From: Acarospora socialis
Taxonomy: Eukaryota; Ascomycota; Lecanoromycetes; Acarosporales; Acarosporaceae
Length of the DNA: 64,000 nt
Assembly (NCBI GenBank): GCA_025617375.2
Contig: JAMYGW020000011.1
Location: 1,488,001 to 1,552,000, forward strand
Reading direction: 5' to 3'
The notes under the pieces are model-generated. The model had not been told where the DNA came from, searched no databases, and was given only the letters and a program-made list of their open reading frames with translations. The translations under genes and the position numbers were made by a program. Shown here one piece after another: positions 3,289 through 39,214 of this stretch. Position 1 is the stretch's first letter. Each line of letters begins with the position of its first letter.

Positions 3289-5393
3289 ATGTTGTTGACC
3301 GCAAGAGTTTTCATAGGGTGTGCTTTGGGCATCACAGCACATCTTGGCCTCTTTATTCAGGGGGAATGGCACATGCAAGCACCTGTAGTCTTTGCTCTTC
3401 ATGTTCTCTTTGGTTTTCTTACATTCTTCTTCGAAGTTCAAAAGCTAGGACTCTCGCAGTTGCCCTTCATCAATGCCACTGTAATCATTGCAGGCTATCT
3501 GTTTGGCTTGTTCTCCAGCATTGTCGCGTACCGCCTATCATCTTTCCACCGTTTGCACAACTTTCCAGGGCCACGACTGGCAGCTGTCAGCAAGCTTTGG
3601 CATGTCTGGCAGTGTCGAGATTCGCGTAATCATGAGCTGATGGACTGGTTGCATGAGAAGTATGATGGTGACTTTGTCCGTATTGGTATGATCAAGATCT
3701 TTCAAATCCAAACGCATCTTAGCTGTTACTAACACTTTCATCGAGCACTTCAGGACCGAGTGAGGTAGCCTCATTTCATCCAGAATCCTTTGCCATTTTG
3801 GAAGGCTATGGAACTCAGTGCAGAAAGTCGGACTTTTACGACCTGATGCTTCCTGACTTCTCGCTGGTATTCACTCGAGAGAGGGAAACACATAATGCAA
3901 GGCGCAACGTCTGGAGTCATGCACTCAGTACAAGAGGTAAGTTCTGCCAAATAAATGAGGGAAGAAACCGCACTGTTTGCCTCTCTACACTTCCCTGCTG
4001 ATCACAGAGCCACCCAGCCATCTCATCATATCAAGACAGGATAAACCGACAGATTGGAGTTCTCATGAGGAACATTTCCGACTCAGCCGCCGTGAAGAAA
4101 CCGGTTGTAATCAATGAAGTCATGTACTGGTTCACCTTCGATTCCATGGGCGAGTTCGCCTTCAACCAGGACTTTGGCATGATGCGGCGCCAGGAATGGC
4201 ACTTCGCCATTACTTTGTTTCGACGCGCACTCTCGATCATCGGTCCCTTTGCACCGACCATCTGGCTGATCAAGGTTGGATTTGCGTTCCTGCCCTGGTT
4301 CTGGAAGATCAGAGATTGGTTTGCGATGCTGGCTTTCTGTAAACAACAGATGGATAATCGGATGAAGGTTTGTCGTTATGAATAAAACATCAAATACTTT
4401 GGTGTTCTGGTTGGAATATGCCATCTGACTCGATACACAGATGAGACCCGAGGAGAAAGATATTTCATCCTTCTTCCTTGACGAGGCCGATAAGGAACAA
4501 CACAGCACGTCTATGCAGAACTGGCTGAAAGGCGACACAGCAACAGTCATAGTTGCGGGGAGGTACAAGACATAAGCCCAACTCAACCATCTTCTGCTTT
4601 CATCCTCCATATCTCTACCAAGCATGATATTACGTATAACTAATCCAAGTCAACAGTGATACGACAGCTCCAAGTCTAACATTCTTATCCTACTGCCTTG
4701 CCAAACACCCTGAACACGCAGAGAAGGTCCACGCTGAGCTCGCCGGAATCGACCCTCTCGACCTCAACGCCGTCTCCGCTTTACCTCATCTCAATGGCAT
4801 CATCAACGAGGTCATGCGTCTGTATTCAGTGGCACCCACTGTTGTCTCTAGGGAGACTCCTCCGCAGGGCATTGTGATAGGCGGTACCTTCATCCCGGGG
4901 TATACGAAAGTGCTGGCGCCTCGCTGGGTCATTTTCAGACGTAAGTTGATGCGCGTAACCCTCCGCATATACTGCTCGGAATCGATTCTAACATGGGTTG
5001 TCGCTCATTTTCAGGTGAGAGTTGCTTTGAACGAGCCAAGGAGTTCATCCCAGAGCGCTGGTACAGCAGGCCCGAGATGGTGAAGAATAAGCATGCGTTC
5101 GCACCTTTTGGAATGGGTGAGTACTTCATATGGCATGATAGCTTTCCGCTGTCGGTGTGTATAAACAAATCGGAAAGGCTCACCAAACATTCCTTACGTC
5201 TACAGGACGCGCAAGCTGCGTCGGGCAAGGACTTGCAACCGCGCAGCTGCGGCTGGTGCTGGCGTCTCTGGTGAAGAAGTTCTATATACGGTTTCTGCCG
5301 GGTGAGGATGGGAAGGAGGTGTTGAGGGATATGAGAGATCAGCTTACGGCGCAGCCGGGGAGGCTGAGGCTTATGTTTGAACCGAGAGAATGA
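3289..5393 (+). CDS. Cytochrome P450 monooxygenase (cluster)
   Basis: Haem-thiolate monooxygenase, probably ER-bound and oxidising the product of the neighbouring cluster. Seven exons: 3289-3685, 3754-3936, 4018-4367, 4441-4562, 4657-4940, 5015-5116 and 5206-5393, giving 541 residues in one exact frame. The N-terminus has about three hydrophobic segments before a FPGPR proline hinge. The I-helix reads AGSDTTAPS (about 349). The ExxR helix is NEVMRLY, the PERF-type motif is FIPERWY, and the haem loop is FGMGRASCVG with the Cys ligand. The N-terminal part (YWFTFDSMGEFAFN) resembles fungal specialised-metabolism P450s. An in-frame ATG at 3184 would add 35 residues; 3289 was chosen because it directly precedes the first membrane segment. 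All key motifs are intact. The substrate is unknown. Confidence 0.93.
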
Positions 5394-5825
5394 GGTGAGG
5401 ATGTCAAGGGAAATTTGGATTGTGTGACCATCACAGAGAGGTTGTGGCGTGGAATCATGGGAGGGAGACGGTGCAAAAGAGTACTGGGCCGAGGAGATTA
5501 GTGTTTTTAGACCGTCAGTCACGCTTTGCTCTTAGTTCATTCTACATTTGACAATGGATATACAGTTGATGTATGGCCACAAGTCATACATGCAAATGAT
5601 GATTCACTTGGGTCCTGTGATGGCACGATGGTTGCACAGTCTAGCACCTTCACAGTATACATGTCACAGACGAGTAGTCAGCCAGATGAAGCAGTTTGAC
5701 AATGCACTCTTGCACTCTTGCACTCTAATCTGTATGGCTGAGAATGAGCACGACATAGCTTCAAGCACAGTTTACTTTAAAGACAGAGCGGGAGGGTTAT
5801 GACAACATGATGTCTCTCTCTCCAT
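5394..5825. other. Convergent intergenic spacer
   Basis: About 430 bases between the 3' ends of the P450 and the FAD oxidase. I see nothing beyond expected 3' untranslated sequence; short open frames here have no recognisable features. Confidence 0.6.
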
Positions 5826-7717
5826 CTACGTACTTCCACTCTTACAGAGTCTTCCATCCTCCGCCACAGCCCAGTACTCGCTCCCGACCCCAGTCAGCGC
5901 ATAGAACATATGCGTGGGATCATATTTATCCTTGATAGCGTTCAAACGAGCGTAATTGGCCCCGTAGAACGTCTGCTGAAAGTTGGGCTGCTGAAAGTCG
6001 GCTTCGCTAAGGTAGGCACCGCCGCCGGGGGTTAGTTTCTCTAGTTGCGGGACGAGTTCGTGCGTCATTAGTTGCTGGTTTGCAAGATTGATGCTCCAGT
6101 CCGTATAGTTATATAGTGTGTAGAGGACCATGTCAAATAGCGTGTCACGCCATCCGGGATTCACGGAGTTGTAAGGAGAGCCGACGACGCGGTTAGAGAC
6201 GTTAAGGGCGAGGCCGGTGGCCCCACCGCCTTTCTCGTTGATGATGCGGAAAGCGGCAGTTAGGGCAGAGTTATTATGCTCGACGAGCGAGCGTGGGATC
6301 CAGCGGCCGCCAATTTGAATTTCGGAGGTCGGGATTGGTGGGTTCATGGCGATGTAGCTGTCTAGAAAACTGGGATACTCATTCACAACGTATGCTGTTG
6401 GGAAGCAGTCAGATCGGTCGAAATGCCACACAGTAGAACATGTGTCTAGCAAAAACATGCCTGTGACTTACTGTAGTTCAAGTTGTACTGGTCGAGCTTG
6501 TCGGTCACGGGCTTCAATATGGTGTCCATCTGCTCTTTTGAAATGTTCGGGCCATACGTCGGCGCCATTGAGAAGGTGGTGTTCGTGAACTGCCAGACGC
6601 TGACACCCCCGGCATCCACAATAGGGGCGAGGGCCTCATGGAAGGTCTCGATGACACCATAGTAAGCATCTTGCGAGACACCTGCATTCGTAAAGGTGAG
6701 GTTAGCAGCAGAACTTGGCATGTCCTTATGTGCCTTGCTCGTCATCGACAGCACGACGCCGAAGACACCACCGCCGCCTCCAGCGAGCGCCCAGTACAGG
6801 TCTGAGTTGTTAGAGGGGTTAGCGCGCAGAAGTTCCCCCGTCCCTGTGACGAGCTCCCACTCAAGAACTTGGTCTGCTGCGAGTCCGAATTTCGAGGCTA
6901 GCGGCCCATGACCTCCGCCTTGGGTATAGCCACCAGCAATACCCACCGTTGGGCAGTTGCCGCCTACGACTACCAGACCTTGTGCGTGAGCAGCTTCGTA
7001 TGCCTCTTGCCCTTGGACGCCGGCACCCATTTTCATGGCTTTGCCAGTATAGTTGGGTGATATATAATCCAAGATTTCAATGCCTTTTATGTTGTGAGTC
7101 CAGATACCGATGGCGCCGGCTCCAGTTGATTTCGCATTGTAATCGTGTCCCGTGTTGCGGACTGTAAGGCGAATGTTGTGGCGTTGCACGAACTCGATGG
7201 TCTTCTGGTAGTCGGAGGCTTTGCTGGCGTTCACAGCATACTGGATGTACGTGCCGAGAACGCAGCGAGCGCTTTCTGGCAGGAACGGGTCGCAGCTCTG
7301 GTTGGCGAAGAATGGTGCCATGACTGAAGAAGACGAATCGTAGTGGGTTTTTTCTAAGAACCATATGGACTGTAATTTGGCGCATGCTTCGGCGTCGTAT
7401 GGTGCGAAGGAACTGTGGTGGCATGCACTTGCGATGGGCACGGTTGCTATAAGCTTGCCGCCTAGTGTTCGGTTGAAGTCATCCCATTCTGTGGCTTTTG
7501 GCCAGCAGGCATCGCCGGGGTAGCAACGACATGATGAGCTGTTGTTTGACGTGTATGACGGTGTAGATCTTGATGGAAGTCTTCTGTCAAATGATGATGA
7601 TGATAAAGCAGCTCGCACATAGCTACAGAAACTTAACAGTGTAAATAAAAGCTGAAGAGAGCCATCAAGCCTGTATGAGCCACGATTGAGATGCATCATC
7701 GTCGCTGATACTGGCAA
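5826..7717 (-). CDS. Secreted FAD-linked oxidase, berberine-bridge type
   Basis: Flavin oxidase of the FAD_binding_4 plus BBE architecture, which oxidises C-H or alcohol groups with O2. Two exons, 7717-6472 and 6394-5826, separated by a 77-nt intron, encode 604 residues. A hydrophobic segment at about 20-36 looks like a signal peptide, and there are many N-x-S/T sites, so an ER or extracellular enzyme is likely. The FAD domain has RNTGHDY (His about 191) and GGNCPTVGIAGG (Cys about 255). These match the two residues that carry bicovalent FAD in BBE enzymes. The C-terminus has the BBE signature FYGANYARLNAIKDKYDP. Starts at 7717 or 7699/7696 are possible and give nearly the same protein. It lies convergent to the P450 and probably belongs to the same pathway. 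The reaction is unknown. Confidence 0.93.
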
Positions 7718-9172
7718 TACTTTTTCTTCAGCAAACGCTTAACAGGAGATGCCAGACATATGTATTCGATAGACAATTCTCTTACAACCCTTCAGCCTCA
7801 TCTATCCTTCAACTAATTCGTAAGCCACAGGATAAGAATCTACATGGTAAAGAATCTAATTGCATCATGGTGTATTGTCCTGTAAAAGCTTTCCGAACAG
7901 GAAATTTTCAATATTAACTACCAAGTTGGAAGAGATGGCATTGAACAACTGCTCAAAATGCAAGGTAGTTGTACACCTTCATTTCGACCTTAAGGGAGTC
8001 AGAGATAATGCCGTAGTATCATGATAGTGATGGCCTCTTTGATGGAGTGCATACATGGTGATCAACTAGCAAGTATAATTGCACTCATTATAGCGAGGAT
8101 TGCGGGCTCGTTTGCAGGAAAGCTCCGTAATGTCTCCGAGATCACCGCTCTCCTGATGGATCCGAGCCCAGTCAGACATACATACTCATTCTTATGGGGG
8201 CTGTGCGTCGAATTTGGCTAGGTTTTGTCGACCGGCCCCAGATTCACGGGATAAGTAGGATTGGAAGTGCATGGCATCGGAGATACCGTGGGTGTGGCAC
8301 GGGGATCATAAAACAAACTCCCCATCGCCTGTAATGACCTCTCGGAGTTTAAAGGTTCAGGCGTCCATGCAGCACGTATTATTATTGTTGGGGCAAGGGT
8401 CATGAAAGCTGCATTAGCAGCCTTACCTTAACATTATGAGATACTTTGCAGAGTTGGACTGCATGACTTGCGAGTAACATATGTGTACTACAATATATAG
8501 ATATCCGTCCTGCCCTCTCATCCTCGTCATCTCTGCTTTCATGTTGTACCTGTAAGCCCCCAAGATTTTTTAGACGCAACTCAGCACACATGTACATTGA
8601 CAGGCGGCAGGTCTGCACCTTCATGTTGTGACTGAGTGTCAGTGCCTCCTCCGGGAGGGATTCTAAGACACATTCACATGATAAAGGAAAACAGACACAA
8701 CTCACAATGGCCCTGTGACCCTCGTTTTTACAGAGTTGAGATAAAACGATCAATACCTTGTATTATAATACAAATATGCCATGACAGCATGTTGAGGTAC
8801 TGTACAGCAGAGTCAGTCTCAGCCGGGTATATTTAGGGTATGTTTTTCCGTCTAGAATACTTATGATTGAAAAGGTTTGACCGTTTTGCATGTTTCCTTT
8901 TAGCTCACTCGTGCAAGACCAACATCAAGATCCTGAAGTGTGGGACAGGTCGACCAAATGTCGGTATAGGAAGGTGATGTAAGGATAACCCTTGTACATA
9001 AGCCAGTATTGGTTGCTTAGTAGAGGTGCGAAAGAACACCCTGTTAGACTGAGCCTTGCTACTTTGCGGCGCTCAGTATAATGAAAGATTAACACGTACA
9101 TTGAACAAATATTCAAACAGTTCCTCATAACATGTTCCATCCACCCTTAAAAGAAAACCTCATCTCTGTCTG
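7718..9172. other. Gene-poor spacer inside the cluster
   Basis: About 1.45 kb without a supportable gene. It includes the promoter of the FAD oxidase on its left and the 3' flank of the rhodopsin-like gene on its right. Short open frames at 8021-8221, 8400-8753 and 8925-9140 lack domains and splice-consistent neighbours. It may be decayed sequence, but I see no recognisable relic. Confidence 0.5.
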
Positions 9173-10456
9173 TCAAAGCATTTGGTGTTTCTGCGGCTCA
9201 CCAGTAACATAATAATCATGCCGAACACCAATTGCATTTGAGTCACTCATACACGATTCATCCTCCTGGGTGATAAAAGGCGATCGTACTACCGCCTCGG
9301 CATTGCTGAAGTTCCTGCCCTCCTCAAGCTCGAGGAGAGAACCCTCGTTCAGGCGGCTGAAGTTTTTTTTGCTGAGGCCGCGCGACTCTGAACTTCCGAT
9401 GGTGTTTCGGGTTTCCTTAAGCTGCCTCTTGCCTGTGCCCTTTCCTGAACCCCTCTGGATCCTTGACACAGCTGGTCCGAGGTATTTTGAGAAGAGGGGT
9501 GCGAGTGTGGGTAGGCAAGCGACAATGATGCCGAGCCAGACCTCGAGGTGGGCCACAAGGCCTATATTGCCCAGTCCGTAAACAAAGTCGCTCTGGGTGA
9601 CCGATTGGACAGTGATTTGAATTCTCCATCCCATGATGGCTACAACCCTGTTGAAGCAAGTTAGTCGCTAATGGGCAGAAAATGACCAAAATCGAAGTGC
9701 TGATGGGCCTTACAAGAGACCGAGACCGAAGAGACCACTGATGGCAACTTTCTTGCTGGTTGGCATATGGAGCCCCCACAAAAGTGGCATCGGTAGTATC
9801 ACAATAGAAGTGTCAATGACCATGTTCACACTGACAGAGGTGATTTCCTCAATGGCCACATTCTTACAATATCCGCCTGGAACTGGGTTCCAGGAGTATG
9901 AAATCGGGTGGCAGTTGGTGCAAAAGACAACAAGGAATGCAATGCCATAGCCTGACACAATGAACATTAAGATCCATGCGGCGATTTTGAAATGCTTTGT
10001 CGTAAAGATGCATGTGTAAAACCAGAGAATTGAAAGTTTACAAAAGACTGTTGCAAAGAGCCATGTGAAGCCGGTGCCTAACAGGATCTATTATATGAGT
10101 CAGTCTAACTATTCTATTGCTTTGCCCTTCTACCAGCCCGTATTACCTGGTATTGCACACCAATCTCATACTCAGTGAGCTCCGAAGTGTGCGCACCAAG
10201 ACCGTTGGCAATACCCCACCACGTACAACCTTCCAGAGCAAGCATACTGATCTGAATCTTTCATAAGTGCTGCACTAACAGGTGAAAGAACATCTGCTGC
10301 GCTTACAAAAGCAACAGTGATCAGATAGTCATCTGGGCGAAGTGCTCGCTTCTTGATTCTGACAGCCCAAAAGCGAAATGCGACGACCAATATTATGATG
10401 ATAGTGAAGACCACCATCCATATCATCAGCGAGACTCCTTGATGACTGAGCAACAT
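9173..10456 (-). CDS. Fungal rhodopsin-like seven-helix membrane protein
   Basis: Integral membrane protein of the fungal rhodopsin-like (PTH11/SAT5-type) family. Exons 10456-10307, 10251-10147, 10087-9714 and 9647-9173 give 367 residues in one frame. The order is typical: a first helix (MIWMVVFTIIIILVVAFRF), the RALRPDDYLI cytoplasmic motif, a helix pair around GCTWWGIANGLG, the extracellular CxP/CxN-type loop with NCHPISYSWNP and GGYC, then PMPLLWGLHMPTSKKVAISG and a last helix in LGIIVACLPTLAPLF. A polar tail of about 100 residues follows. Members are common in plant-associated fungi and are often found inside biosynthetic clusters, where their role (sensing, transport or scaffolding) is mostly unknown. 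Its place between the oxidase and the A/B-barrel gene suggests a cluster function; this is inference. Confidence 0.88.
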
Positions 10457-11214
10457 TATAACAAGTATAGAGCAAGTGCTGTTGTTGAAACGATAAAAAG
10501 CTGCGCCAAAAGCGCGACGAGTGGTATCAATTTTTTCGAAAAGGGTACCAATAAGGGCTTATCTGAAATTCTAGCACGGAGTATTTTTGGGCCCATAAGG
10601 CAAGGGTTCATAATAACGTTAGTATGCAGGAAGCCGCGTTTTCTCCAAAGACTCCAAGCCACTCATGCATAACGGGAAATGGCGCAATAACGTTACAGTG
10701 CATAAGTCTCCGTCCGATAGTGAGAGTCACGCAATGTCAGGATTTATCATCGTTGTAAGACCCTGTACCATCCCAGACCAGACAAGAATCTGTCAAGGTG
10801 TACTAGCGAAGTATTGAAAGCAAAATTCAGTCCTGGTGTTACAACAGCTCATGCAAGCAACAATTCATGCAAGACCAATGAGCTCACCCGTCCCTGTAGG
10901 GTAGCCAAACAGAGTGTATGTTCGGTGGAAATGACACCTTATAACTGCTTTTATGTTGGAAGGTTTCGAAGGTATTGAAAGACATATCATAACTTATACC
11001 TAGTAGCGCCCCTGAGACTAAGGTCACATGCTTTCAGCCTTTTTATCTATTATTGCAAGCGTTACTCTTTATGTATAAAACCAGCCGGCGTCCATTCATA
11101 CCGTGTATTCGCTGATATCATTCATCAGATCTATGGCTGATACAAGCTGATCTCAAAGATCATAACTTCTTTGTTCTAAACCGTAACGAACAACCACTGC
11201 TCAACTCAACCAAA
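10457..11214. promoter_or_regulatory. Divergent intergenic region, rhodopsin-like / A/B-barrel
   Basis: About 760 bases between two divergent cluster genes, holding both promoters. No supportable gene. A TATA box lies near the right end. Confidence 0.55.
11074..11080 (+). promoter_or_regulatory. TATA box upstream of the A/B-barrel gene
   Basis: TATAAAA lies 135 bases before the ATG of the A/B-barrel gene, a normal distance for a fungal core promoter with a short 5' leader. Confidence 0.5.
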
Positions 11215-12117
11215 ATGATAACCGAAATAGTAACCTTTCAGCTAAAAGCCAACGCCAGCCTGGCTGACCCGGGCTCACCAGCTGGCAAAGTAATCAGCGA
11301 GCTCCTCGCGCCAGAACTCGCCGCTCATGGGGCACACGATGTGTACTACGGGCAGTTCATCGAGAAGCCTGAGACGGCCATCATCTTCGTTCAATGGGAT
11401 TCTATTGATGACCACAAGAACTTCATGAGCTCACCGTAAGTCAAAGTCCACTCTTGCTGTCCTCCAAAAGAGGAGGTAGTATTTGGGCTTTAAAGCTCGC
11501 CACGGTAAACCTTCAGACCGCTGCATTCTTTCTCACCGTATCCGTCCACTTCTTTTTCGCTCTCGTTCGCTCCTCAGCTTTCCCAACAGAGATTGAATTG
11601 GAATCTATCACCCTGCCGCCCCCTGCTGACAAACTGGACAAAAAGCAACTATGAAAAACATGAGACTCACCTCCGAACCATTGTCAACGATGAAGAAACC
11701 GTCACAGTCCTGCATGTCCCCTTCAACCCTTCGGACGACCCATCCCCCGCCCTTGGCGCCAACAGCAAAGTTGGCGCTACTGAAGTCGTCTTCTTCTACT
11801 TCCCCTCCACTCTCACCCACAGCAACAAAGACGCGATCATGTCCTCCGTCGACAAGATGCGGCCCGTCATGAAACGTTCCGAGGCGCTTGCCGTGTATGA
11901 CGGGTGGGCGCTAGAGGAGGCGGTGCCGAACCCGGGCCCGCAGGCGAGCGATGGGGAGACGAGCAAGGTCTATCTCAATGTGGTGGGTTGGGCTGATGTT
12001 GACGCGCATATGCGATTTCAAGGTAGTGAGGATTTCCAACAAAACATTCATCATTTGTTGGGGATTAAGGATATGAGGCATACCGAATTGTATCATGTCA
12101 AGTTGCATGCGGTATAA
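11215..12117 (+). CDS. Double dimeric A/B-barrel (ABM-like) protein
   Basis: Two exons, 11215-11435 and 11646-12117, encode 230 residues. The 210-nt intron is the longest in this group; it was placed by frame (the junction reads SSPNYEKHETH). Two repeats of a ferredoxin-like alpha+beta barrel are visible. The first starts MITEIVTFQLK and contains VQWDSIDDHKNFMSS; the second contains TEVVFFYFPS and VVGWADVDAHMRFQGS. This pattern matches antibiotic-biosynthesis-monooxygenase / stress-responsive A/B-barrel families, which include cofactor-free oxygenases and cyclases in natural product pathways. The fumagillin cluster has an ABM-family member (Fma-ABM) beside its UbiA terpene cyclase, which makes the neighbourhood here notable. 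No catalytic residues can be assigned by eye, and a non-enzymatic role is possible. Confidence 0.85.
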
Positions 12118-12293
12118 GGTGGCGAGAAGAACACAGGCTTGCGTGCTGCTCGATGGCTTTATAGGGTCAGTGGTTGGGGATAGTGACTGCTTCGTTTCAT
12201 CAAAGATGCCTGCTCAAATTCAAGCTCTATCCATTTCAAACCCTTTGGATTTCAACGGCCAAAGATGAGTAGTCTCATCCATGCTTCTCAGTA

Positions 12294-13211
12294 TCAACCA
12301 AATAAAGTTCCCGACACCTTAACCAATGGCAACAGGTACACCGAAACAAGCCACAAATTCCAAAGCCGAAACGTGGTCTTATCCCCTTTCTCACTCCTCT
12401 CTGTCAAAGTCCTCACCGCAACAGTCAGCCCCAGTAGCACAGGCGCCATATACCCAACCGTCGGAGACGCCCACAGCCAGGGTGTGGCCCAGGACCACAC
12501 AACCATCGGAACTGCAATCGTCCACCGTGCCGGCGCATCGCCCATCACCAACGGCACAGTCTTGCGGTTCCTAGCGGCATCGCCTCGCTGGTCATGCATA
12601 TCCTGCGTCTGGACGGTGCTGAATACAATGCAGCCAATGACGAAGGACCACCATCCCAGGAGCTGGAGCGCGGATGCGCACCGACCGATCGTGACTTGCA
12701 TGGCACCGGAGGAGAAGCAGATGAAGCCGCAGGCGTTGATGAGGTTGCGGATGAGGCAGTTTGAGTCGGCGCCGCGGAGGTTGTTGTACCAATATCCGAG
12801 CAGTATCAGCGCCAAGCACTGGGACAGGGTTCTGAGGAAGAGGCTGACGACAAGGGCTACAGAGTAGAGTGCGAGCATCAAGCGCTTGGCGGATTCTGGC
12901 GAGAGTCTTTGGGAGGGCATAGGCCGCCATAGCTTGTTCAGCGAGTCCTCTTGGATGGCTTCGGGTTGTCGCTGATTGTTGATAGCGAAGGGGAGGAGGT
13001 TTACCCAGACCCAGAAGAGCACCAGCGGGGTTTTGCTCAGGATTTGATGGGGTGGTGGGAGGTGGATTTGCGAGGAAAATGTGTGCTCGTTGTTTAGGGA
13101 GATGGCGACGCCGTTGATGAGGCCGAAGGCTGTGCTAGGGAGTATGATGGTTTTGAGGTCGCTGAAAGTAAAGAGCCAGACCGAGTAGAGGTGGAATGCC
13201 CATTGCTTCAT
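12294..13211 (-). CDS. UbiA-family prenyltransferase or terpene cyclase
   Basis: Intronless gene for a 305-residue integral membrane protein with about seven to nine helices, the normal size for UbiA enzymes. These enzymes bind prenyl diphosphates through two Asp-rich motifs. The second is clear: QDMHDQRGD (Asp 204, 207, 211) followed by the conserved R-x-T-x-P. The first is unusual: NNQRQPEAIQEDSLNKLWRP (about 78-97) keeps the Asn and an ED pair but lacks the usual NDxxDxxxD. This N...ED..NK.WRP form is the fungal UbiA-like type that I associate with Fma-TC-like terpene cyclases. It is convergent with the A/B-barrel gene, only 176 bases away. It probably makes or attaches the terpene unit of the cluster product. 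Whether it is a cyclase or an aromatic prenyltransferase cannot be decided from the sequence. Confidence 0.88.
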   Translation of the reverse strand: MKQWAFHLYSVWLFTFSDLKTIILPSTAFGLINGVAISLNNEHTFSSQIHLPPPHQILSKTPLVLFWVWVNLLPFAINNQRQPEAIQEDSLNKLWRPMPSQRLSPESAKRLMLALYSVALVVSLFLRTLSQCLALILLGYWYNNLRGADSNCLIRNLINACGFICFSSGAMQVTIGRCASALQLLGWWSFVIGCIVFSTVQTQDMHDQRGDAARNRKTVPLVMGDAPARWTIAVPMVVWSWATPWLWASPTVGYMAPVLLGLTVAVRTLTERSEKGDKTTFRLWNLWLVSVYLLPLVKVSGTLFG

Positions 13212-14464
13212 GATCTTTTAGCAAAGAACAAATTCATGTGCGTTCTAAGATATGCCATGCTACGAGACAAGATAAACTGTCAAGGAAGCTAATATACACG
13301 TGAAGACATGAAGCAGTGAAAGAGGCAACGTCTATTCCGAAAACATCCTGAGCCATGATCTGCTGAGGTGAGAGAATAATAATGGAGCTTGGTAGCCTTA
13401 CTCAGACGAGGGATTGCACAAATCATCAAGAGTAGCTGCCTGATTGGCTTCATCAATATCGTCATAGCCTTATGAGCAAAGACCTTTTTGGAAACATCAG
13501 AGGGTTCCGAGCCCTGTAGAGTACCCTACTAATTCAGCTTGTGCTCCGCTCATGCATCCTGCACCTATGAACTTGTTACCAACGGAACTGATTCAGAAGG
13601 GTAGCATGATCGGCCAGATTACTATAGGATCATCAATGTATGGGTAAGGCGCAGCAAGCAAAACGGGTGTTACTAGCAGTGCTTACGATTGCTGCGCCGT
13701 CGCTGCGCTGACCATCTCAGCATGATTACAGCAAATTGGAACCCTCCGCGATGTGATAGTGCAGCACATGTATACTAAGGGCGCAGCAATGGTAGGGATA
13801 AGGAGGAGCGGAGTCCGAGTGAATTGGGCTTCTTGTTCCGTCGGGGACTTTCCATTTCTTATTTCTATGTTGTACGGAGGCAACCAACATAAGTCCTGTA
13901 CTTTGTACAACTTAGATATTCAAATTCCAATCCTGCACGCAATCCAGCTCCAATAAATGCAGCAGCCTGTTCTTGGTACATATGCGCTGCTGCTGCATCA
14001 ATTGAGCTAGTAAACCACCATCCTGTGGTCATGGCGGTGGGGACACGGCATATCGAGAGTTGTGGGGGCCGCTATTGCCTTCGAGACTGCATTTAGAAGG
14101 CAATAATGTGAACCATGTAGAAAGAAGTGGTGTAACAGAGGCCCTTCACATGCTTGGGCTATACGAGTGTCACATCGCACTGAGGTGTCAACCTGTATCA
14201 TGAACGTTGTGCATAATCTCGAAATTCGGTCAATCAGAGACCTCAGTTTCATTCTGAAGCTCGGATCATCTGATATGTGTATTGACTCAGGTGCAGCAGA
14301 CTGACGCAGTTGCAGGCCGTGGGCAGAGAAATAAGGTACTTCATGAGGAATGGTCCCCAAGCACAGTAGGTGAACGCTCTTCAAGGCCACACAGCTGCCT
14401 TACATTCTTGGAGGAAACTATTGTCATATCATCAAGATCAAGAGAAAGAGAGGATCAAATCATC
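13212..14464. promoter_or_regulatory. Divergent intergenic region, UbiA / SDR
   Basis: About 1.25 kb between divergent cluster genes. It must hold both promoters. Short open frames at 13683-13956 and 14007-14390 have no features of real genes. Confidence 0.5.
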
Positions 14465-15672
14465 ATGAAGCCGCCTTTCCCATCAGCAACACCAACCTGG
14501 CACAATGATACTTATCCAGCAATCTCGCCTTCCCGCCCCGAATTGAGCGTTGCTGGCAAGACTGTTGTCCTCACCGGCGCGGTAGGCTTCTGATCCCTTG
14601 CTACAAGGTCCGCCAGAATTACAAAAACACGCCCACTGACAACGCCACAAGGGAAGCGGCATCGGCCGCGAAACCGCCTCCGCCTTCGCCAGCGCCGGCG
14701 CAAAGCAACTCATCCTCTTGGGCCGCGACAAAGCCAATCTCACGGAAACGAAAGACCACCTCCCACCAAACAGCGGGAGCTGCTCCATCCACGCCGTCAG
14801 CGTCACCGACGAGAATGGGCTGAAGGACGTCGCCGCTGCTGTAGGGACCTGGGACGTTCTGGTTCTCAATGCCGGGTTTCTGTCGGATCCCGGCCCGGTC
14901 GCGCAGACGCGTGTGGATGACTGGTGGCAGAGCTTCGAGGTGCGTTTCTCTTTGCCGGACCGAGCTTGTGTCTCGGTTTCCTCCACGAGCCCTGTCGGAA
15001 GTCAGGCGTCCGAGCGCAAACTACGAGCCCAGGATCAGAACGCAAGCAACCCGCTGAACTGATTTGCCTCTCGCCAGACCAACGTCAAAGGCACAATGGC
15101 AACCACACAAGCCTTCCTCCCCACCGCGAACCCTTCCCACGCCGCAATCCTCGGAGTCACCACCGGCGTCAGCGCTCTCCCGCCCGCGATGTTGCCCGGC
15201 CTCTCGGCGTACGTCAGCTCGAAGCTGGCGCAGGTCAAATTCCTCGAGTTCTTGGCGGCGGAGAACCCGAATGTTTTCGTTGCGAGCGTGCATCCCGGTA
15301 TGGTTGAGACGGCCATGTTTCGGAAGAGCGGGGGGCAGGCCGATGCCATGCCGATGGATAAAGGTCGGTCATATTTTACCGACTGATTCCCTCCTTTCCC
15401 ACTCCTCTGTCTCGCTATGTTTTTGATTTCCGTTCAGAGGGTGACTTCGTTTCGAGCCTCGAATGAACGAACTACTGACGTTGCATGTTACAGTCCAACT
15501 CCCAGCACACTTCATGCTCTGGTTGGCTAGTCCCGAGGCGAGTTTCCTGAAAGGCAGATTGGTCTGGGCGAACTGGGACGTGGATGAGCTGAAGTCACAG
15601 GCCGAGGAGATTCAGTCCGGACAGCAGATGACCGGCGGCATCATCGGGTGGCCGTACCCGCACATGGGCTGA
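14465..15672 (+). CDS. Short-chain dehydrogenase/reductase (cluster)
   Basis: NAD(P)-dependent oxidoreductase of the classical SDR fold. Exons 14465-14581, 14652-14939, 15078-15363 and 15494-15672 give 289 residues, the usual SDR length plus an N-terminal extension. The first splice joins the cofactor motif TGAGSGIG. Further motifs are [13 protein letters not shown], and the catalytic YVSSK (Tyr and Lys), preceded by a Thr/Ser-rich stretch [11 protein letters not shown] that supplies the catalytic hydroxyl. HPGMVETAM follows the active site as in typical members. The Arg after strand 2 (LGRD) suggests NADPH, as inference. The last gene of the group, it is divergent from the UbiA gene and may reduce a ketone or oxidise an alcohol of the terpenoid. 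Confidence 0.92.
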
Positions 15673-22015: not shown

Positions 22016-25000
22016 TCAGTCGTCTATTTCCAACGGCTTCGTCGCTGTCCCGTATGGCGATGGTGGAGAGACGATCGTTGTTGGTGTAGGAGGGTTATCC
22101 AGCATGTCTCTTTCCGCACTACCATTTCCGTTGCGGAGGTCAGTCCTGCTATGGCACGCTTCGCCGGCTGCTGACTCCTCGATGATCGTCCCGGGTTCGG
22201 TGGCGGAGGAAGAGGACCTCGGGTCGTGGTCGCCAGTCCCACTACTACTGCTGGCTGCAGTTCGGCGCCGTCTTCGATCTTTCCGCTCGTCATTCGAGCT
22301 CTCCCGCCTTCTGCGGACACGTAGGCTGCCGTCGCGCGAGTGGTTTTCGTCTCCATCCCCATCACCACGTAGACCTTGGAGCATGTTCGCCGCTCGATCG
22401 GCGACATCTTCAGTCTCCGGCACCTCGTTCTCAGGGATGGTGGGGATGGCTTCACCAGAGTTGCGGTTCGGGCTCAGGAGGCCGGTATCAGTCGTGTCAG
22501 CATCGCTCTTGGTGGTGAGATCGGCGATGTCGGGGATCTTCTGACCAGACGCGATCCGGACTTGATGACGGTCCTTTAGTCTAGCACGCCGTCTACGATC
22601 TCTTTGATCTCGTGCTTGGGGCGCAGCAGCTCGTAGCTTCTCGAGCAAGGAGTCCATCGCTCCGGTCGCTCCGCTGGACGGTGAAGGGGGAGCTTCGGTG
22701 GCGCTGGTAGCGTTTACCAAAGCGGGGTTATTGCGCTTCCGGGCCATTGAAGCCTCAATTCGCCGGCGGTTTTCCTCCATGGTGACGTTCTTCTCTTTGG
22801 ATTTCTGGGAATTGGTCAGTTCGACGGCTCGTAGCTACTATCTGCCAGTATAGACTTACTCTCCACTCAGTCACGAATATAGCCAACTTCGCAAAGAAAT
22901 CCCTTCGAGCGTTGTCATCCTTGGGGTCCTCACCGTAGAAGGTCATGATGTCGTCGTATGTTCTCGTCATCTCCTCTAGGTAGAGTTGCATCTGTTCTGC
23001 CTTTCGCCGCGCATCTTTCATAGATCGTTGTACGACTTGGCTGACACGATCCTGCGGATGGAACTTCTTCGAATCACTGAGATTGCCGGAATCGAGCGAG
23101 CTCTGAACGTTCTTGATGTTGTCAATGTACTGCTTAGCGTCCAACTGCAGCTGCTCTACATTGATCTTCTGAGCTGTAACAACACCGCCAATGTCTTCAA
23201 CAAAACCTTCCCACTCCGGGTACTGGTTTCGGACGATTCTCTCCACTAGGTCGGCGAAAGTCGACTCGTTCTTATCATCCTTGACCATCCCTAGCCTTGC
23301 GAGAGAACTGAGCTTGAACCCATTCGCTTGCTTGTTCGAGTCATTCATATAGTTACCGATATCGAGGATAAGACCCAAAACGTTCATCAAAGCCACGGAA
23401 TCGCGTAGAGACTCGGATACTTTGACGACGCCTTTGAGCTTCTCAGATATGATGTCATATTCGGGTTCGAAAGATCGGGTCAAGGCCAAAGCTCGCATCC
23501 GTGACTTCCAGTAGTGGCGTAGCTCGAACGCAGTCTGTAGATAAATCTGGTCCTCCCTTGTCAATTCATTGGGATCCTGCTCCCGTGGTGTGGTAAGTGC
23601 ATTGGGTCCAGTCCAGTCCTTGCTATAAGGGGCCATAAGCTTAGCAGTATTGTCGGGTATGGTACACAAGTCATTCTTTTGCAAGAAATCCATGACAACT
23701 TCGTTATCTAGAACTTCCTTGTCGCAGTGGATGATCATCCGAACAACCTCGTCTACAGGGATCTGAGAGAATTTGGCCATGGAGATGTGGAAACTTCTCA
23801 TCAGATCGCTGGAGATAATCTGCTTCTTGTCACTCTTCTTACCTCCACCGGATCCTATTACCTTGATCTCTTTCGCCATGAAGAGCTTCTCAACCTCATC
23901 GAGGACGCCCTTCCTCGACAGTTCCAAATACTTCTCTTCTTTGGCTTCATGCGTCGGAGCATGAGCCGCCCATACTGTGACCTGTGGTGTGTCAACCTTC
24001 TCCCAGTGCAGCGCCTTGAGTTTCTTCTTCGGGCGGATGAAAGGTAGGCCAATGGTTGCTGAAGGAGAATATGGCGACTGAGGGAGATAGCCTCCCTTCT
24101 TCATGCCCGGAAGAGGCGGAGGACCAGGTGGAGGTGGCGGGCCCATAGCAGCAGGTATTGCGAACTTGCCAGGCATAGGGGGTGGTGGGGGTGGAGGAGC
24201 ACCTGTACTGAACCCAGGCATTGGAGGAGGAGGTGGCGGAGGAGCGCCTGAACTGAACCCAGGCATCGACGGAGGCATTGCTGATATAGCTGACGAGGGT
24301 GGTGGTGGTGGAGGTGGAGGAGGCGGGGGCGGAGGGCCACTTTCAAAGCCAGGCATTGTAGCAGGACTTGACGGCATAGGAAGCGGTGGCGGAGGTGGAG
24401 GAGGTGGCCCACTGAACCCTGTTTCAGATCTCGGCATACCTTCGTCGGACGGCGTCTTAGGCGAACTCGAATCTAGGCTTGGGTGCGATGGGCCGGTCGT
24501 CACGCCGTCGTCATCTACATCCTCATCCTCACTGGCATCGTACTTTCGGACCTTAGAGGCGATCTCCTCCAGCACTCCAGTCGCCTGCTGTGTATTCATC
24601 CGCGGCCGTTTCATCTCCACGATCCGTGGCTTCTCAAAGATGATGGCATCCTCGCCGTCACCTTCGGTGAGATCGTCTAAGCGTTCACTTTCAGCCAGAG
24701 CATCAGCTGCCGCTCGCCTCGGCCCTCGAGGTAGATTGCTCTTGGCTCTCGACACACTTCCAAGCGTACTGTTGCTGAAGTTCCGCCGGGTAGTATCTTG
24801 TAGATCATCCCTTTGACCTAATTCGCCATCCATCTTCTCCCGTAGCTCGCGTAGTCGGTCCGAAGGCCCAGCCTGTTGCCATACTTTACCCTCAAGCTTG
24901 CACTGGGTCTTGGCTCTCTCAAGCTGCATTTCCAGTCGGTCCATTAACCGGGTGCGGTCCAAAATACCCTGCATCTGCTTGGGATCAATAGCACCAAGGT

Positions 25001-27815
25001 CGTTCTTGCCTCCCTTTTTGGCAGCTGACGCAGCAACTTCTTGCGCGTCTCGCAGCATGAGGTACAATTCCCTAGTCTCGAGCTCGTTCCGCTGCAATTC
25101 CTGCGCACGAATGCTTTGGAGATCAGCAAGCTCGCCCTTCAATGCGTCGTTTTGTCGAGCCTGAAGCTCAATGATAGCCGCCTGTTCATCCAATTGCTTT
25201 TGCAGCCTTGCAACCATGCCGTTTGCCCCGAGCTCGACTTGTGCCCTCATTTCATCACGCTCCGCTATTGCAGCATCCGCGATCTGTCTGGCTTCCGTAG
25301 CTTCGTCCAGGGCCAGACGAGCCTCGGAGTCTGTGTGGAGCTTGTCGAGGAGGTTCTGCACAGAGAAGTTCAAACTTTGCTTGAGATCCATGTCTGGTAA
25401 CCGTCGGTCCATAGCAACATAGCTCAGCATCGAATCAACCAATTGGAACATTCGCAACCGATCCTCGCCGTCATTGTCTCGAATAAGTAGCATATGCTGC
25501 ATCGCTGACATGAAGTAATCTTGTGACCTAGTCCCTTGGACTTTGGTCATGATTGCATCCACAATCTGAGCCGGATCGTTAAGGTCCTTTACTTCTCCTT
25601 CGAAGCTGTCCTTGATACTGCTGTTTTCCCGTTGGAGAAGGTCTTCATGGTCGATGGCCTCGTTCTCCCTATACCGATCTATCTGCTTGTCAATGACATC
25701 GTACTGAAAGCCTTCCATCTTGGTCAGTATCCGCCGGATGCCACAGGATATGAATTGAGCTCGGATGTGACATCGTAGCTGCAGGTCTCTCTCCGGTGCG
25801 TCGATGATCATGTTGATAAGGAAGAGCGTAGTCACAACATACTCCATGAGTAGGTTCTCCATGCCAATACCGCCGCTTCGAACTTCCTCGCTGGCACCAA
25901 CAAGACTGCCCATCTTGCCTCGGCCGTCGACAGTAACCTCGACGATCCGCATCCACGCGTCAAACCGGCCGTTCTCTCCTTGTTGAGACTTGACATAGTC
26001 CATGGCCTCCAATACTTTGACATGGCCATGTCCATCGGCCCAATGACACAAGAATGTCAGGACCTCGCTGACAAGCTTCCGCGTAGTCAAGCGAGGGGAG
26101 ATCAGAGAACTAGCCATGGCAACCAGAATTTGTTGATGAGACAGAGCATCGTCTGCGCCGTACTTGTTGTTCATCAAGGCTTTGAGGCATTTCACAATGT
26201 CATACTCGCGGTCAAGGTCCTTGTCACTGGTCGAGCCGGTGGCGGGTGCAGGCCCTTGAGCCTGCCTTCGATTGATTTTCGAAAGGACATTGGTCAATGC
26301 AATCTGCCCTTGAGCTTCCACGAACGATTTGACCCAACTACCTTTGTTAGTACGCAAGGACTGTACGCGATCGCGGGACGAGGAGCACCAAATTCGAAAG
26401 GGAACATATATAGGTAATTTGGCCTCTGACTGTTTGAAGGCAACATGGAAAATAAACAGTCAACATATTGTTGGCCATGTCAAGCCGACATTCTTGCATT
26501 AGATCTTAGATCTTGGAACAAACCTATATGCTCTCGCAAGAAACGTACAGAAAGTAGAGACAGATTAAGAACAGCGTGCTAATGCTTACCTGATTGGCTG
26601 TGTCCGCAGGCTAACACTCAAACTCTGCAATTGTTTCGCGTTTATAGAGTCATCCATCACCCTCTTCACGAACCATTCCGGGCTGCCTTCTTCATCGACG
26701 CGGCCATATATTCCAGAATGCCCGTCGGCGCTAGCAACAGTCTGCCGAACATGTTGCCTTCTCTTCTGCTCCCCTTGCCATTCCGTCAACCTATCCTGGT
26801 GCACCAAGGTCCACTTCTTATCTGACGGATATGCCAGCATCTGTCGCTTTGCTTGCTCCGGAAGGTTCTGCCACCCACGCTTGTGCATGAGCGCGAGGAA
26901 TTGCGCCTCGACGACACTGTCATCGCTGGGTCGTACTAGATGAAACCCTTCTGGGCTGAAAGATGTGGTGGAGCCGAAAGCAGACGGCTGCTGTGGATGC
27001 CAGTTGGTTTTGGGTGTGTTCGATTGACGAGAGGATGAGTGTGATACAACAGGTGATGGTGTGGGATACTCCATGCTCTGTGAAGGTATGGCGGTGCGTG
27101 ATGAATTGTCGGATGAGAATAGGCTTGAGCCACGTGTTGCGGAAGAAATCGAAGAGTAAACGCTGGCTTGATCGAATGATGTGCGAGGGTTGGTTAAGGA
27201 ATCCGCGGTCGAATAAGAGTTGTAGTTGCCGTAAGCAGGAGTATGTGTCGAGTTCGCAGCGCCTCCACCTCTTGCCCACTGCTGCGGTTTTCCATTCCGA
27301 TCGGCTGTAGCACTTAAGCTCACTGTGGTACCGGTAGAGTGTGGAGGAGGCCTGGGCCCTGTAGGATGCGAAGAACCGTTCGTAGTCGGACTCGTAGGAT
27401 TCCATGCTGGATATTGATGGAAGTCTCCACCTCCTTTATTGAGATGATGTGGTAGTGGCTCTTTTCGAGCGGGGATTTGATCGCTGCGAGGTAAGTAGTC
27501 GACGGATATGGGCGTTTTGCTGTCCGCTAACACGCTGTCGTAAGGTATTGAACTTATCACTCCTGCCGTCGTCGAGAGTCCTGACCCGTCCACGCCATTG
27601 GGAATATCTACCGATACTGACGCACGGTGCGAGTGCCTAGATGATCTCGACCCTGACGCGCTGCCGCCATAGTTTGGTACGGCGGGCATAAGATTTGCCT
27701 CCTCATTATCACGGCTGTCGGATGACTTGTCTTTGTGGAGCTTTCGCCCGAAGAAGGACCTGCCACCTGAGGATTGTCTCGTCTTGGAGTCGACCGGTGC
27801 AGTTGTCGTCGGCAT
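22016..27815 (-). CDS. sepA: Formin, SepA/Bni1 type
   Basis: Nucleates linear actin cables and rings for polarised growth and septation. Exons 27815-26590, 26337-22860 and 22804-22016 encode 1830 residues, near the size of Aspergillus SepA. The order is a disordered Ser-rich N-terminus, then a GTPase-binding/FH3 region beginning near SPEWFVKRVMDDSI, a coiled coil, an FH1 with several polyproline tracts (plus-strand 24103-24420), and an FH2 starting at LKALHWEKVDTPQ. The tail has a DAD-like autoregulatory motif, SLLEKLRAAAPQ, followed by a basic RRRRARLKD patch. The intron 26589-26338 (252 nt) was placed by frame; its acceptor gives PISWVKSF. An upstream in-frame ATG at 27884 would add 23 residues. 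GBD, FH1, FH2 and DAD parts are all present and intact. Confidence 0.95.
24103..24420 (-). repeat. Polyproline FH1 repeats in the formin
   Basis: G-rich on the plus strand, coding for at least five runs of 5-13 prolines separated by related spacers of the form MPGFSSGA or MPGFSTGA. The spacers are near-copies, showing local unit duplication. FH1 runs bind profilin-actin and SH3/WW domains in known formins. Confidence 0.85.
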
Positions 27816-35490: not shown

Positions 35491-37476
35491 TTATTTTCCA
35501 ACACAGAATCTGTGGGTTAATAAGTAGTTGTTACACCTTCCTCAAAATTGATATGGGCTTACTTCTCGAACACCACCCCCAATACTTCCTCAACATCCCC
35601 TGCTTCGCCTTTCCCTGTGATCTTTGCCAAGCAGCCGGCAGCTGCTCTGAGGTGTTCAGCCGCGAGCACAACATCATAGTCGTCGCTGACTTCCGGAGAT
35701 AGGTTGGTTGGGGATTCGTCGCTCCGTAGGAAAGCATCGAGATGCCCTAGACTTTCCTCAAGAAGTAGCCGCTGCCGCTCCGTAGCCCCGAGAGATAGCT
35801 CATACATCGCCGGTTCAATTGGCATATCTTTGGTGTTCGAGCATATGGGTGCAGTAATCCTCTCCAAGACGTGAGTCAATCCTCGGAGGAAGTATTGGAT
35901 TCCCCCAGCATCATGGTCATGGCTGTTTGCAATTTCAGCAATTTCAGCATTTGCGCAAGAAATTGCGAGGATTCCATCAGCGTGACCATGAGTGTCTAGC
36001 ATTGTCTGCGATAGTAGCCTCGATACTCCAGGCTCAAAGTCCGGTGGCTGGCCCGGGGTAAATATGTCACTTTTGTTGACGACGTAAATCACTGCTTTAC
36101 CGTCTTCGGTACATCTGGTGGCCATTTCAGCCACTTCTGGATCAATCTTGACGATAGGATTGTGCCTATAGACGATGTCCCATTCGGCAGACAGAACAAC
36201 AATGACAACATCGGAGTCAAGCGCTCTTGCTTTGGCCCTTCTTATACCCTCCTCTTCCACCTCACCAATTGTGGATTTCGAGCTTCTACGTCGAGCACGA
36301 GATGATTTCTTGGACGAAGGTGTGCCGCTTCTCAAACCAGCCATATCACCAAATTTGCAGTAGAAACCACCAATATCTACACCAACTTCGACAACATCCC
36401 TCGTTGTTCCTTCCTCTTGACTGACAATAGCAGCTTCCCTTCCCACGATAAGGTTCAGAAGGGAGCTCTTGCCGGCATTCGGAGCACCCAGAAGGGCCAC
36501 CTTGATCCCATTGCGAACAAGCTCACCTCTTGATGCGTTCGAAACATGAACTTGCATGTGCTTCTTTAGAGTCACGATCTGCTCAGTGACAGACGAGACC
36601 AGCTGCTTGGGCGATTCGTCAAAGTGCTGATCCTCCGCGAAATCGATGAGAGCTTCTAGCTCACCACGAGCATGGAGCAGTTGCTGCCGCCATGATTCGT
36701 AACGCCTTGCTAGGGCGTTGCTCGTTCCACGAACCGCGAGACGGCGCTGTTGTTCGGTATCGGCCGCCAAAGCATCCCCCAGGGCTTCGATCTGAGTCAA
36801 ATCCAGCCGGTCATTCTCGAAAGCTCGACGAGTGAACTCCCCAGGTTCTGCGTAGCGAACAGTACGTCTTCGCCTTGACTCGTACCCTGGAAATGTCACG
36901 CACTGGGGTATGGCTGCAAGAACGGCTTTTACGATCGCAGGCCCACCGTGTATGTGCAATTCTAGAACGTCTTCACCCGTGACAGTCTGTGGGCCGGGAA
37001 AGTATAAAACTAGGGCCTCAGGGTCGAGGACGCCATCTGCTCTAGGACCTTTGATAGGATCATAGAGCGAGCGCAGTGTAGCATGTCGTGGTTTGAGGGG
37101 TGGTTTGCTCGGGCATAATGCTTGGTATATCTACGTGACAATACTTAGCAAGCTTAACGTCTGCAAAGGATATGTGACACACTTCAACACATCGTGGACC
37201 AGAGATCCGAACTACGGCAATTGCAGCCCTGCCCGGCGCTGTTGAAAGCGCATATATGATTGAACCGCTCTCATCGACATTTTGACCGTATTTCTGATTT
37301 TCCCGAACTGGTGGATTAACTGTCCGGTATCGAGCAACCTGTATGGTTGGGAGTAGAGATGGATATACAATGTGGCTGCAATCACAGGACAAACGGGATG
37401 TTGGCTTCCAAGCTTGCGGGAGACGCCGATCACAATGTATGCAAAGGCGGCCACCTGAACGAAAGAGCTGTCGCAT
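35491..37476 (-). CDS. MSS1: Mitochondrial tRNA modification GTPase (MnmE/MSS1)
   Basis: With MTO1 it installs the 5-carboxymethylaminomethyl-type modification on wobble uridines of mitochondrial tRNAs. Exons 37476-37183, 37130-35563 and 35509-35491 give 626 residues. A basic presequence leads to the folate-binding N-domain (IYALSTAPGRAAIAVVRISG, PGEFTRRAF). The G-domain has GAPNAGKSSLLN (P-loop), EEGTTRD (switch I), DMAGLR (G3) and NKSD (G4). It carries a Lys/Arg/Ser-rich insert after G3. The main exon stops at VVFEK, which would lack the essential C-terminal FC[IV]GK. A 53-nt intron and a 19-nt final exon restore exactly FCVGK-stop. The catalytic Cys is therefore coded by a tiny terminal exon, easily missed by gene finders. 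Confidence 0.94.
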
Positions 37477-38756: not shown

Positions 38757-39214
38757 GACTGTTCGCTTTGATATCAGCGTTTTTTAGCCCTAGTTTTATC
38801 AATGGATGCTACTCTAGACAAGCTATCACCTTTGCACAAGTAATATCAAGTTGCAACGTCATTTCTTTATACAGTATTGAAGTTGGTAGTAGATAGCGTC
38901 CTCGCAATTTTCCCTGTGGATGTAGTTCGAGACTTGAGACAACCTTGACCGAGAGTATATCTGTATTCACCGAGTTGACGATGTGCTAATGATAATACAA
39001 CATCCACCGCGGCGGTCTATCAAGCACCAACCCAGCACGGATCTCAGTTACTACTTGTCAGTAACATACCGGAGTGAGCTAGCCAAGCCGCCATGTTCAA
39101 GATAATCTGGCTCCTACTTACCTACACCAGTCTTAACGAAGAGTCCGAGATCAACCAACAGAATCACATCAGCCGTTCACACTGCCTCTTCTACACAGAT
39201 CCTGAACTGCCAAC
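38757..39214. other. Intergenic spacer, MAK16 to Mso1-like gene
   Basis: About 460 bases holding the MAK16 3' end and the promoter of the next gene. Nothing else seen. Confidence 0.55.

Follow-up and report, generated by a model that had tools for sequence, protein, structure and literature searches.

A candidate UbiA-type terpenoid gene cluster between the LeuRS and FDH genes of Acarospora socialis

Gene content of the locus

The stretch of DNA analysed here, 64,000 nucleotides from the ascomycete Acarospora socialis (GCA_025617375.2, contig JAMYGW020000011.1, positions 1,488,001 to 1,552,000 of the forward strand; hereafter the window), carries six genes between those for LeuRS and FDH: a cytochrome P450 (P450), a BBE-type FAD oxidase, a seven-transmembrane (7-TM) protein of family PF20684, an ABM-like protein, a UbiA-type enzyme and an SDR (Table 1). 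All six are intact from ATG to stop after removal of introns with GT..AG borders, in models rebuilt by hand. A preliminary description of this DNA had placed these gene classes together in the interval, and this holds, as each is present, open from start to stop and matched by Pfam. We consider it probable that the locus is a biosynthetic gene cluster whose product is an oxidised sesquiterpenoid. Its core would be the UbiA and P450 genes, probably with the 7-TM gene, and the BBE, ABM and SDR genes are likely, if unproven, members. The window lies on C11 of a 31.15 Mb assembly of 38 contigs, and all paralog searches described below refer to this genome only.

Table 1. Position and structure of the six genes, in window coordinates.
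Gene	Span	Strand	Exons	Remarks
P450	3289-5393	+	7: 3289-3685, 3754-3936, 4018-4367, 4441-4562, 4657-4940, 5015-5116, 5206-5393	541 aa; PF00067; spliced model
BBE/VAO-type FAD oxidase	7699-5826	-	7699-6472, 6394-5826	598 aa; PF01565 + PF08031
PF20684 fungal rhodopsin-domain 7-TM protein	~10456-9173	-	4	367 aa; start codon uncertain
ABM-like (alpha+beta barrel type) protein	11215-12117	+	11215-11435, 11646-12117	230 aa; 210-nt intron inferred
UbiA-type enzyme	13211-12294	-	single exon	305 aa; PF01040
SDR	14465-15672	+	14465-14581, 14652-14939, 15078-15363, 15494-15672	289 aa

The UbiA protein matches PF01040 with an E value of 4.4e-23 (82.3 bits against a cut-off of 34.2). The spliced SDR matches PF00106 (adh_short) at E 2.8e-31 and contains the stretches GAGSGIG and YVSSK, and the heme stretch of the P450 reads FAPFGMGRASCVG. 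The PF20684 match (E 3.5e-28) comes from one exon frame of the rhodopsin gene; 'rhodopsin' denotes here this Pfam family of fungal membrane proteins, and light sensing is not implied. The spliced ABM-like protein matches PF03992 with 25.8 bits (cut-off 23.1) and DUF1330 with 25.4 bits (cut-off 23), both weak and barely above threshold, and a search of solved structures with it gave E values of 0.1 and 0.71 at best. Of the flanking genes, LeuRS shows the PF13603 editing domain together with class I synthetase matches, and FDH is an FDH-like 2-hydroxyacid dehydrogenase (PF02826/PF00389).

The grouping of the six genes is non-random. Family loci were counted by six-frame searches of the genome, and all counts are lower bounds: at least 58 P450-like loci (84 matches merged; 57 besides ours), at least 72 rhodopsin-domain loci (105 matches merged; 71 others), at least 13 BBE-like loci (a hand count from 21 matches; 12 others) and at least 2 ABM-like loci at E <= 1e-3, ours included in each case. 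The expected number of other loci per 12.4 kb is then 0.023 for P450, 0.028 for rhodopsin, 0.005 for BBE and 0.0004 for ABM, and the product for the first three is 3e-6 if random placement is assumed. Fungal secondary-metabolism genes tend to be clustered, and this null leaves out that general tendency; it therefore flatters the cluster claim.

Identity of the UbiA-type enzyme

Six places of the UbiA family were found in the genome, five of them above the cut-off. COX10 (TIGR01473, 250 bits against a cut-off of 210) and COQ2 (TIGR01474, 281 bits against 275) are separate genes, and a third family member is COQ2-like and keeps NDxxDxxxD. The window UbiA shares 14-15% identity with the three COX10- and COQ2-like proteins of the genome. 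In a tree of the genome's own UbiA proteins it forms a separate clade with a copy on contig C5 (C5:1436401-1437273; support 0.976), which is its closest paralog at 54% identity, and with a further copy on C11 near 701 kb (support 1.000 with this copy included). Models for the ubiquinone and heme-o prenyltransferases gave no above-cut-off match to it. Tested on the UbiA proteins of this genome, the protein groups with no housekeeping family.

Two of these family members are notable for their surroundings. On C1 near 450 kb (L003:81-2484), a COQ2-like gene with NDxxDxxxD (211.8 against the COQ2 cut-off of 275) adjoins, by eye, an FAD-monooxygenase-like frame, a possible meroterpenoid locus. The clade member at C11:701747-702349 (L009:7748-8350) lacks the motif I half, lies beside a methyltransferase-like frame and looks like a relic; it was dropped as a candidate third full cluster, as there is no motif I part in the ~750 bases before the truncated UbiA.

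Two aspartate-containing motifs are found in the window protein, motif I (NQRQPEAIQED, residues 79-89) and motif II (QDMHDQRGD, residues 203-211). They lie 115 residues apart, as they do in the C5 copy; in Pb_BisA of Penicillium brasilianum the distance is 114. The QDxxDxxxD pattern of motif II is common to the window UbiA and the copies on C5 and at C11:701k, whereas the COX10-like protein and both COQ2-like ones lack it. In Tps1A, alpha-bisabolene formation depends on each of the three motif II aspartates and also on D100, which presumably belongs to motif I (PMC9835599). An essential tyrosine is Y155 in Tps1A and Y139 in AfUbiA. Y142 of the window protein, conserved throughout the three paralogs of the genome, is a candidate for this residue.

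Membership of PF01040 would also suit a prenyltransferase, aromatic or of another type, that attaches a prenyl chain to an acceptor supplied from elsewhere, and prenyltransferase models do match the protein weakly, the best with 48.7 bits against a cut-off of 269. However, the window UbiA has QDxxDxxxD and lacks the NDxxDxxxD present in both COQ2-like proteins, and none of the six genes is of a kind that makes a prenyl acceptor, such as a polyketide synthase (PKS), which also favours a cluster built on terpene cyclisation. We therefore regard a prenyltransferase as very improbable.

Motif I separates the window protein from one subgroup of these cyclases. In Fma-TC, EriG and Tps1A it takes the form NXXX(G/A)XXXD (PMC9835599); the window motif does not fit this form and is two residues longer, so the protein falls outside the Fma-TC/EriG/Tps1A subgroup. 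In Pb_BisA, motif I is NQRHPGSVAED, which like NQRQPEAIQED has 11 residues and agrees with it at N, Q, R, P, E and D. Pb_BisA is named a (Z)-gamma-bisabolene synthase and placed near the BibS alpha-bisabolol synthases. The evidence in the excerpt consists of a tree, the level of its transcript and compounds that were co-isolated, and includes no assay of the enzyme; the tree also places Fma-TC and Tps1A nearby (PMC11745945). From the motifs we assign the window UbiA to the UbiA-type terpene cyclases that resemble Pb_BisA, with high confidence that it is a cyclase. A bisabolane-type product would be likelier than a fumagillin-like one because the spacing of motif I matches Pb_BisA. To go by its title, Luo 2022 reportedly names a subgroup that is set apart by a distinct motif I.

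Searches farther afield added little to this picture. Relatives of the protein were confirmed neither in genome_contigs (43 pattern matches) nor in viral_contigs (1 match), and solved structures gave a weak match to digeranylgeranylglyceryl phosphate synthase (E 0.008) and another at E 0.71. An AlphaFold2 model made without an alignment (pLDDT 46, pTM 0.25) was discarded.

A second UbiA locus and the borders of the cluster

The closest paralogs of two other window genes flank the UbiA copy on C5. For the P450, the closest among the 57 other loci found is C5:1438641-1440564, with exon scores of 149.7, 106.2, 104.3, 46.5 and 39.2 bits against 108.7 and 22.9 bits for the next locus, on C4. For the rhodopsin it is C5:1434148-1434778 (86.4 and 27.3 bits). 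The chance of both paralogs lying beside the C5 UbiA is ~5e-4 under random placement, and the recurrence of UbiA, P450 and rhodopsin at this diverged locus supports the core genes belonging together. In full, the C5 locus (C5:1431473-1445122, that is L007:3474-9427 and L008:576-7123) comprises P450, rhodopsin, UbiA, P450, methyltransferase, alpha/beta hydrolase and P450 genes. For two of them, the methyltransferase gene and the P450 at C5:1443496, the closest paralogs lie elsewhere; the third P450 of the locus is at C5:1431473-1432802. By eye, a RAD7-type LRR gene adjoins the locus.

The C5 hydrolase leads back to C11, but to the far side of LeuRS. Its closest paralog found, at C11:1482048 (79.7 bits against 46.6 for the next), lies left of LeuRS and ~9 kb from the window P450, and adjoins the second-closest rhodopsin gene. 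The module may therefore cross LeuRS, or LeuRS may have come to lie inside it. The membership and borders given in the preliminary description thus stand in part: UbiA, P450 and rhodopsin recur together on C5, LeuRS may not mark the true left border, and BBE, ABM and SDR are unproven. The second PF20684 gene and the alpha/beta hydrolase occupy C11:1480749-1482590 (L011:2749-4590), and are separated from LeuRS by a gene of the sugar-transporter type (L011:7089-8285, PF00083).

Several observations weigh against a six-gene bisabolane cluster. The lead of the C5 rhodopsin is narrow, the gene at C11:1481k scoring 77.3 and 25.0 bits, and in a four-sequence tree the grouping of the window and C5 rhodopsins against the two others has a support of only 0.914. 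Some rhodopsin gene lies within 6 kb at 9 of the 58 P450 loci, so P450-rhodopsin pairing by itself is not rare. In motif I, position N+5 is Glu in the window UbiA and Gly in Pb_BisA. The bisabolane skeleton is read only from motif spacing, and we judge it about evenly balanced. Upstream of the genes, no word of 7 to 10 bases is common to the four regions compared (534, 800, 758 and 1253 bp), and the CGG-type gapped patterns tried were found in no three of the four. Shuffled upstream regions share 1.28 7-mers on average, and the lack of a common word therefore says nothing for or against co-expression. The six include no gene for a transcription factor. Lastly, no counterpart of BBE, ABM or SDR is present at the C5 locus and their nearest paralogs lie elsewhere, so their membership rests on adjacency. 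The ABM paralog (C8:1170173, 34%) and the SDR paralog (C6:1376817) show no obvious cluster in a listing of open reading frames (ORFs) of at least 170 aa, no family search having been made there.

A rival reading is that the pathway consists of UbiA, P450 and rhodopsin, perhaps with the hydrolase and second rhodopsin left of LeuRS, and that BBE, ABM and SDR are unrelated neighbours. Such a pathway would account for the trio recurring alone on C5 and for the best paralog of the C5 hydrolase lying beyond LeuRS, and it sits well with the lack of a shared promoter word. It also agrees with MtVAO615, which is nearest to the BBE among solved structures, being an oxidase of unknown substrate (PMC6017366). 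However, the BBE and ABM genes sit between P450 and UbiA, where the counts above predict few such loci by chance, and BBE, SDR and P450 form a known tailoring set elsewhere (aspoA, aspoD and aspoF; PMC8752850). We hold the reduced pathway to be rather unlikely and favour the six-gene cluster.

A more far-reaching idea is that the PF20684 protein belongs, as a dedicated component, to an old module of UbiA cyclase and this type of P450, perhaps with the hydrolase, in which it would serve as scaffold, exporter or unrecognised membrane enzyme. The cluster would then span LeuRS, and its bisabolane-type product would be made by a P450-BBE-SDR-ABM series that is undescribed in the UbiA-type cluster literature consulted. 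This is speculative, and we think it unlikely to be right in full. A search of open-licence PMC for PF20684 in gene clusters met neither PF20684 nor 'fungal rhodopsin domain' among the matches listed, and papers that use PF20684 only would escape it. If the 7-TM gene truly belongs, a large fungal membrane family would gain a pathway context. The diverged second locus reveals which neighbouring genes accompany the cyclase. UbiA-type terpene cyclases are a recently recognised kind of membrane enzyme, few in the literature consulted, and cluster predictors can omit their genes, as SMURF did (PMC4205913). The locus is a testable candidate, in which motif I predicts the skeleton.

Rhodopsin and BBE genes also occur together at C8:1885000-1924999 (L039-L042), 40 kb that hold a P450, a rhodopsin-domain gene and two BBE paralogs and, by eye, a PKS gene and ABC-transporter-like frames; this looks like another region of the secondary-metabolism type. 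Elsewhere in the window, a reading frame at 53159-54100 has an OTT_1508-like deaminase domain (PF14441, E 5e-18), and its neighbours include a formin (22758-26459), an MnmE-type GTPase (35562-37130) and an Mso1-type gene (39206-40126).

Proposed pathway and comparison with known systems

In the pathway that we infer, from substrate, cyclisation and bisabolane skeleton to each tailoring step and their order, the intramembrane UbiA would ionise farnesyl diphosphate with Mg2+ held by the two Asp motifs. Closure of the C1-C6 ring would give the bisabolyl cation, to be released as bisabolene or bisabolol. The membrane P450 is the probable first oxygenase and would oxidise either product. The BBE and SDR could then adjust the oxidation level, by conversion of an alcohol to a ketone or by a double-bond shift, followed by ketone reduction. 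The ABM-like protein might act late, as an oxygenase or a cyclase. For the 7-TM protein, a part in transport or sensing, or as a scaffold, is conceivable. Some ABM proteins are cofactor-free oxygenases.

The closest solved structure to the BBE is MtVAO615 (6f72), matched over residues 51-594 with an E value of 9e-137. His185 and Cys249 fit a bicovalent flavin and Glu540 aligns with Glu519 of MtVAO615, so that the flavin His and Cys and the Glu519 position are all kept. MtVAO615 is itself an oxidase with a bicovalent flavin (PMC6017366). The N terminus of the window BBE has by eye a short hydrophobic stretch, possibly a signal peptide, which a hydropathy scan did not flag. AspoA, from a PKS-NRPS pathway, is an isomerase without the flavin Cys, whereas the window BBE keeps it. 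AspoA moves a double bond via Glu538, after which the SDR AspoD reduces the ketone, and a P450 belongs to the same cluster (PMC8752850); PylE carries out an isomerisation like that of AspoA (PMC11375781). The set of P450, BBE and SDR thus has precedent in another pathway, and by analogy a like order of reactions is plausible here.

The preliminary description had seen in the locus a small terpenoid-type cluster around UbiA, without a PKS and with a product unlike fumagillin, but with the enzyme logic of the fumagillin cluster. The first part is supported. None of the six genes is a PKS, acyltransferase, dioxygenase or methyltransferase, and Pfam searches found no PKS in FDH, in 9 of the 37 ORFs of at least 170 aa to its right, or in 5 of the 16 ORFs of at least 120 aa in the 10 kb left of the window. 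Frames of the methyltransferase type turned up at the two remaining UbiA loci (C5 and C11:701k) only.

The shared enzyme logic is not supported. Fma-TC, Fma-P450, Fma-ABM and Fma-KR represent the same broad classes of UbiA-type cyclase, P450, ABM protein and reductase (PMC7020470), and on these four one could propose a fumagillin-type pathway, in which UbiA makes beta-trans-bergamotene, the P450 performs the ring opening of Fma-P450, and the ABM and SDR act as in fumagillin. However, Fma-ABM cleaves prefumagillin oxidatively to fumagillin, and prefumagillin is an ester that bears a PKS-made chain (PMC7020470). The window ABM is thus not expected to do the job of Fma-ABM, because that substrate carries a polyketide chain and the six genes include no PKS. 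P450s and SDRs are generic classes, the spacing in motif I is that of Pb_BisA and not the Fma-TC form, and compared with the fumagillin cluster the locus lacks the PKS, acyltransferase and C6 hydroxylase and has the BBE and 7-TM genes in addition. A pathway of this kind is very unlikely. The comparison is a weak one, and functions here should no longer be read from the parallel with fumagillin.

Closer likenesses are found among the bisabolene-type systems. The tps1 and tps2 clusters of Antrodia cinnamomea contain the alpha-bisabolene synthases Tps1A and Tps2A, with the P450 Tps1H and the methyltransferase Tps1D (PMC9835599). As at the window locus, a UbiA-type cyclase with QDxxDxxxD is clustered with a P450, and the excerpt of that paper does not mention a PKS. 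The tps1 cluster differs in its motif I, NXXX(G/A)XXXD, which is two residues shorter, in having a methyltransferase and reductases where the window has BBE, ABM and SDR, and in its basidiomycete host. Pb_BisA shares with the window UbiA the 11-residue motif I (NQRxPxxxxED), the motif II pattern QDMxDQxGD and a near-identical motif distance. The Pb_BisA/BibS subgroup occurs in Penicillium brasilianum, Stachybotrys and Fusarium, and a P450, Pb_BisB, is named beside Pb_BisA (PMC11745945); the likeness to this subgroup is a likeness to the Pb_BisA motifs. Overall, we regard the locus as a real and probably functional UbiA-type terpenoid cluster, nearer to the bisabolene-type UbiA clusters than to that of fumagillin.

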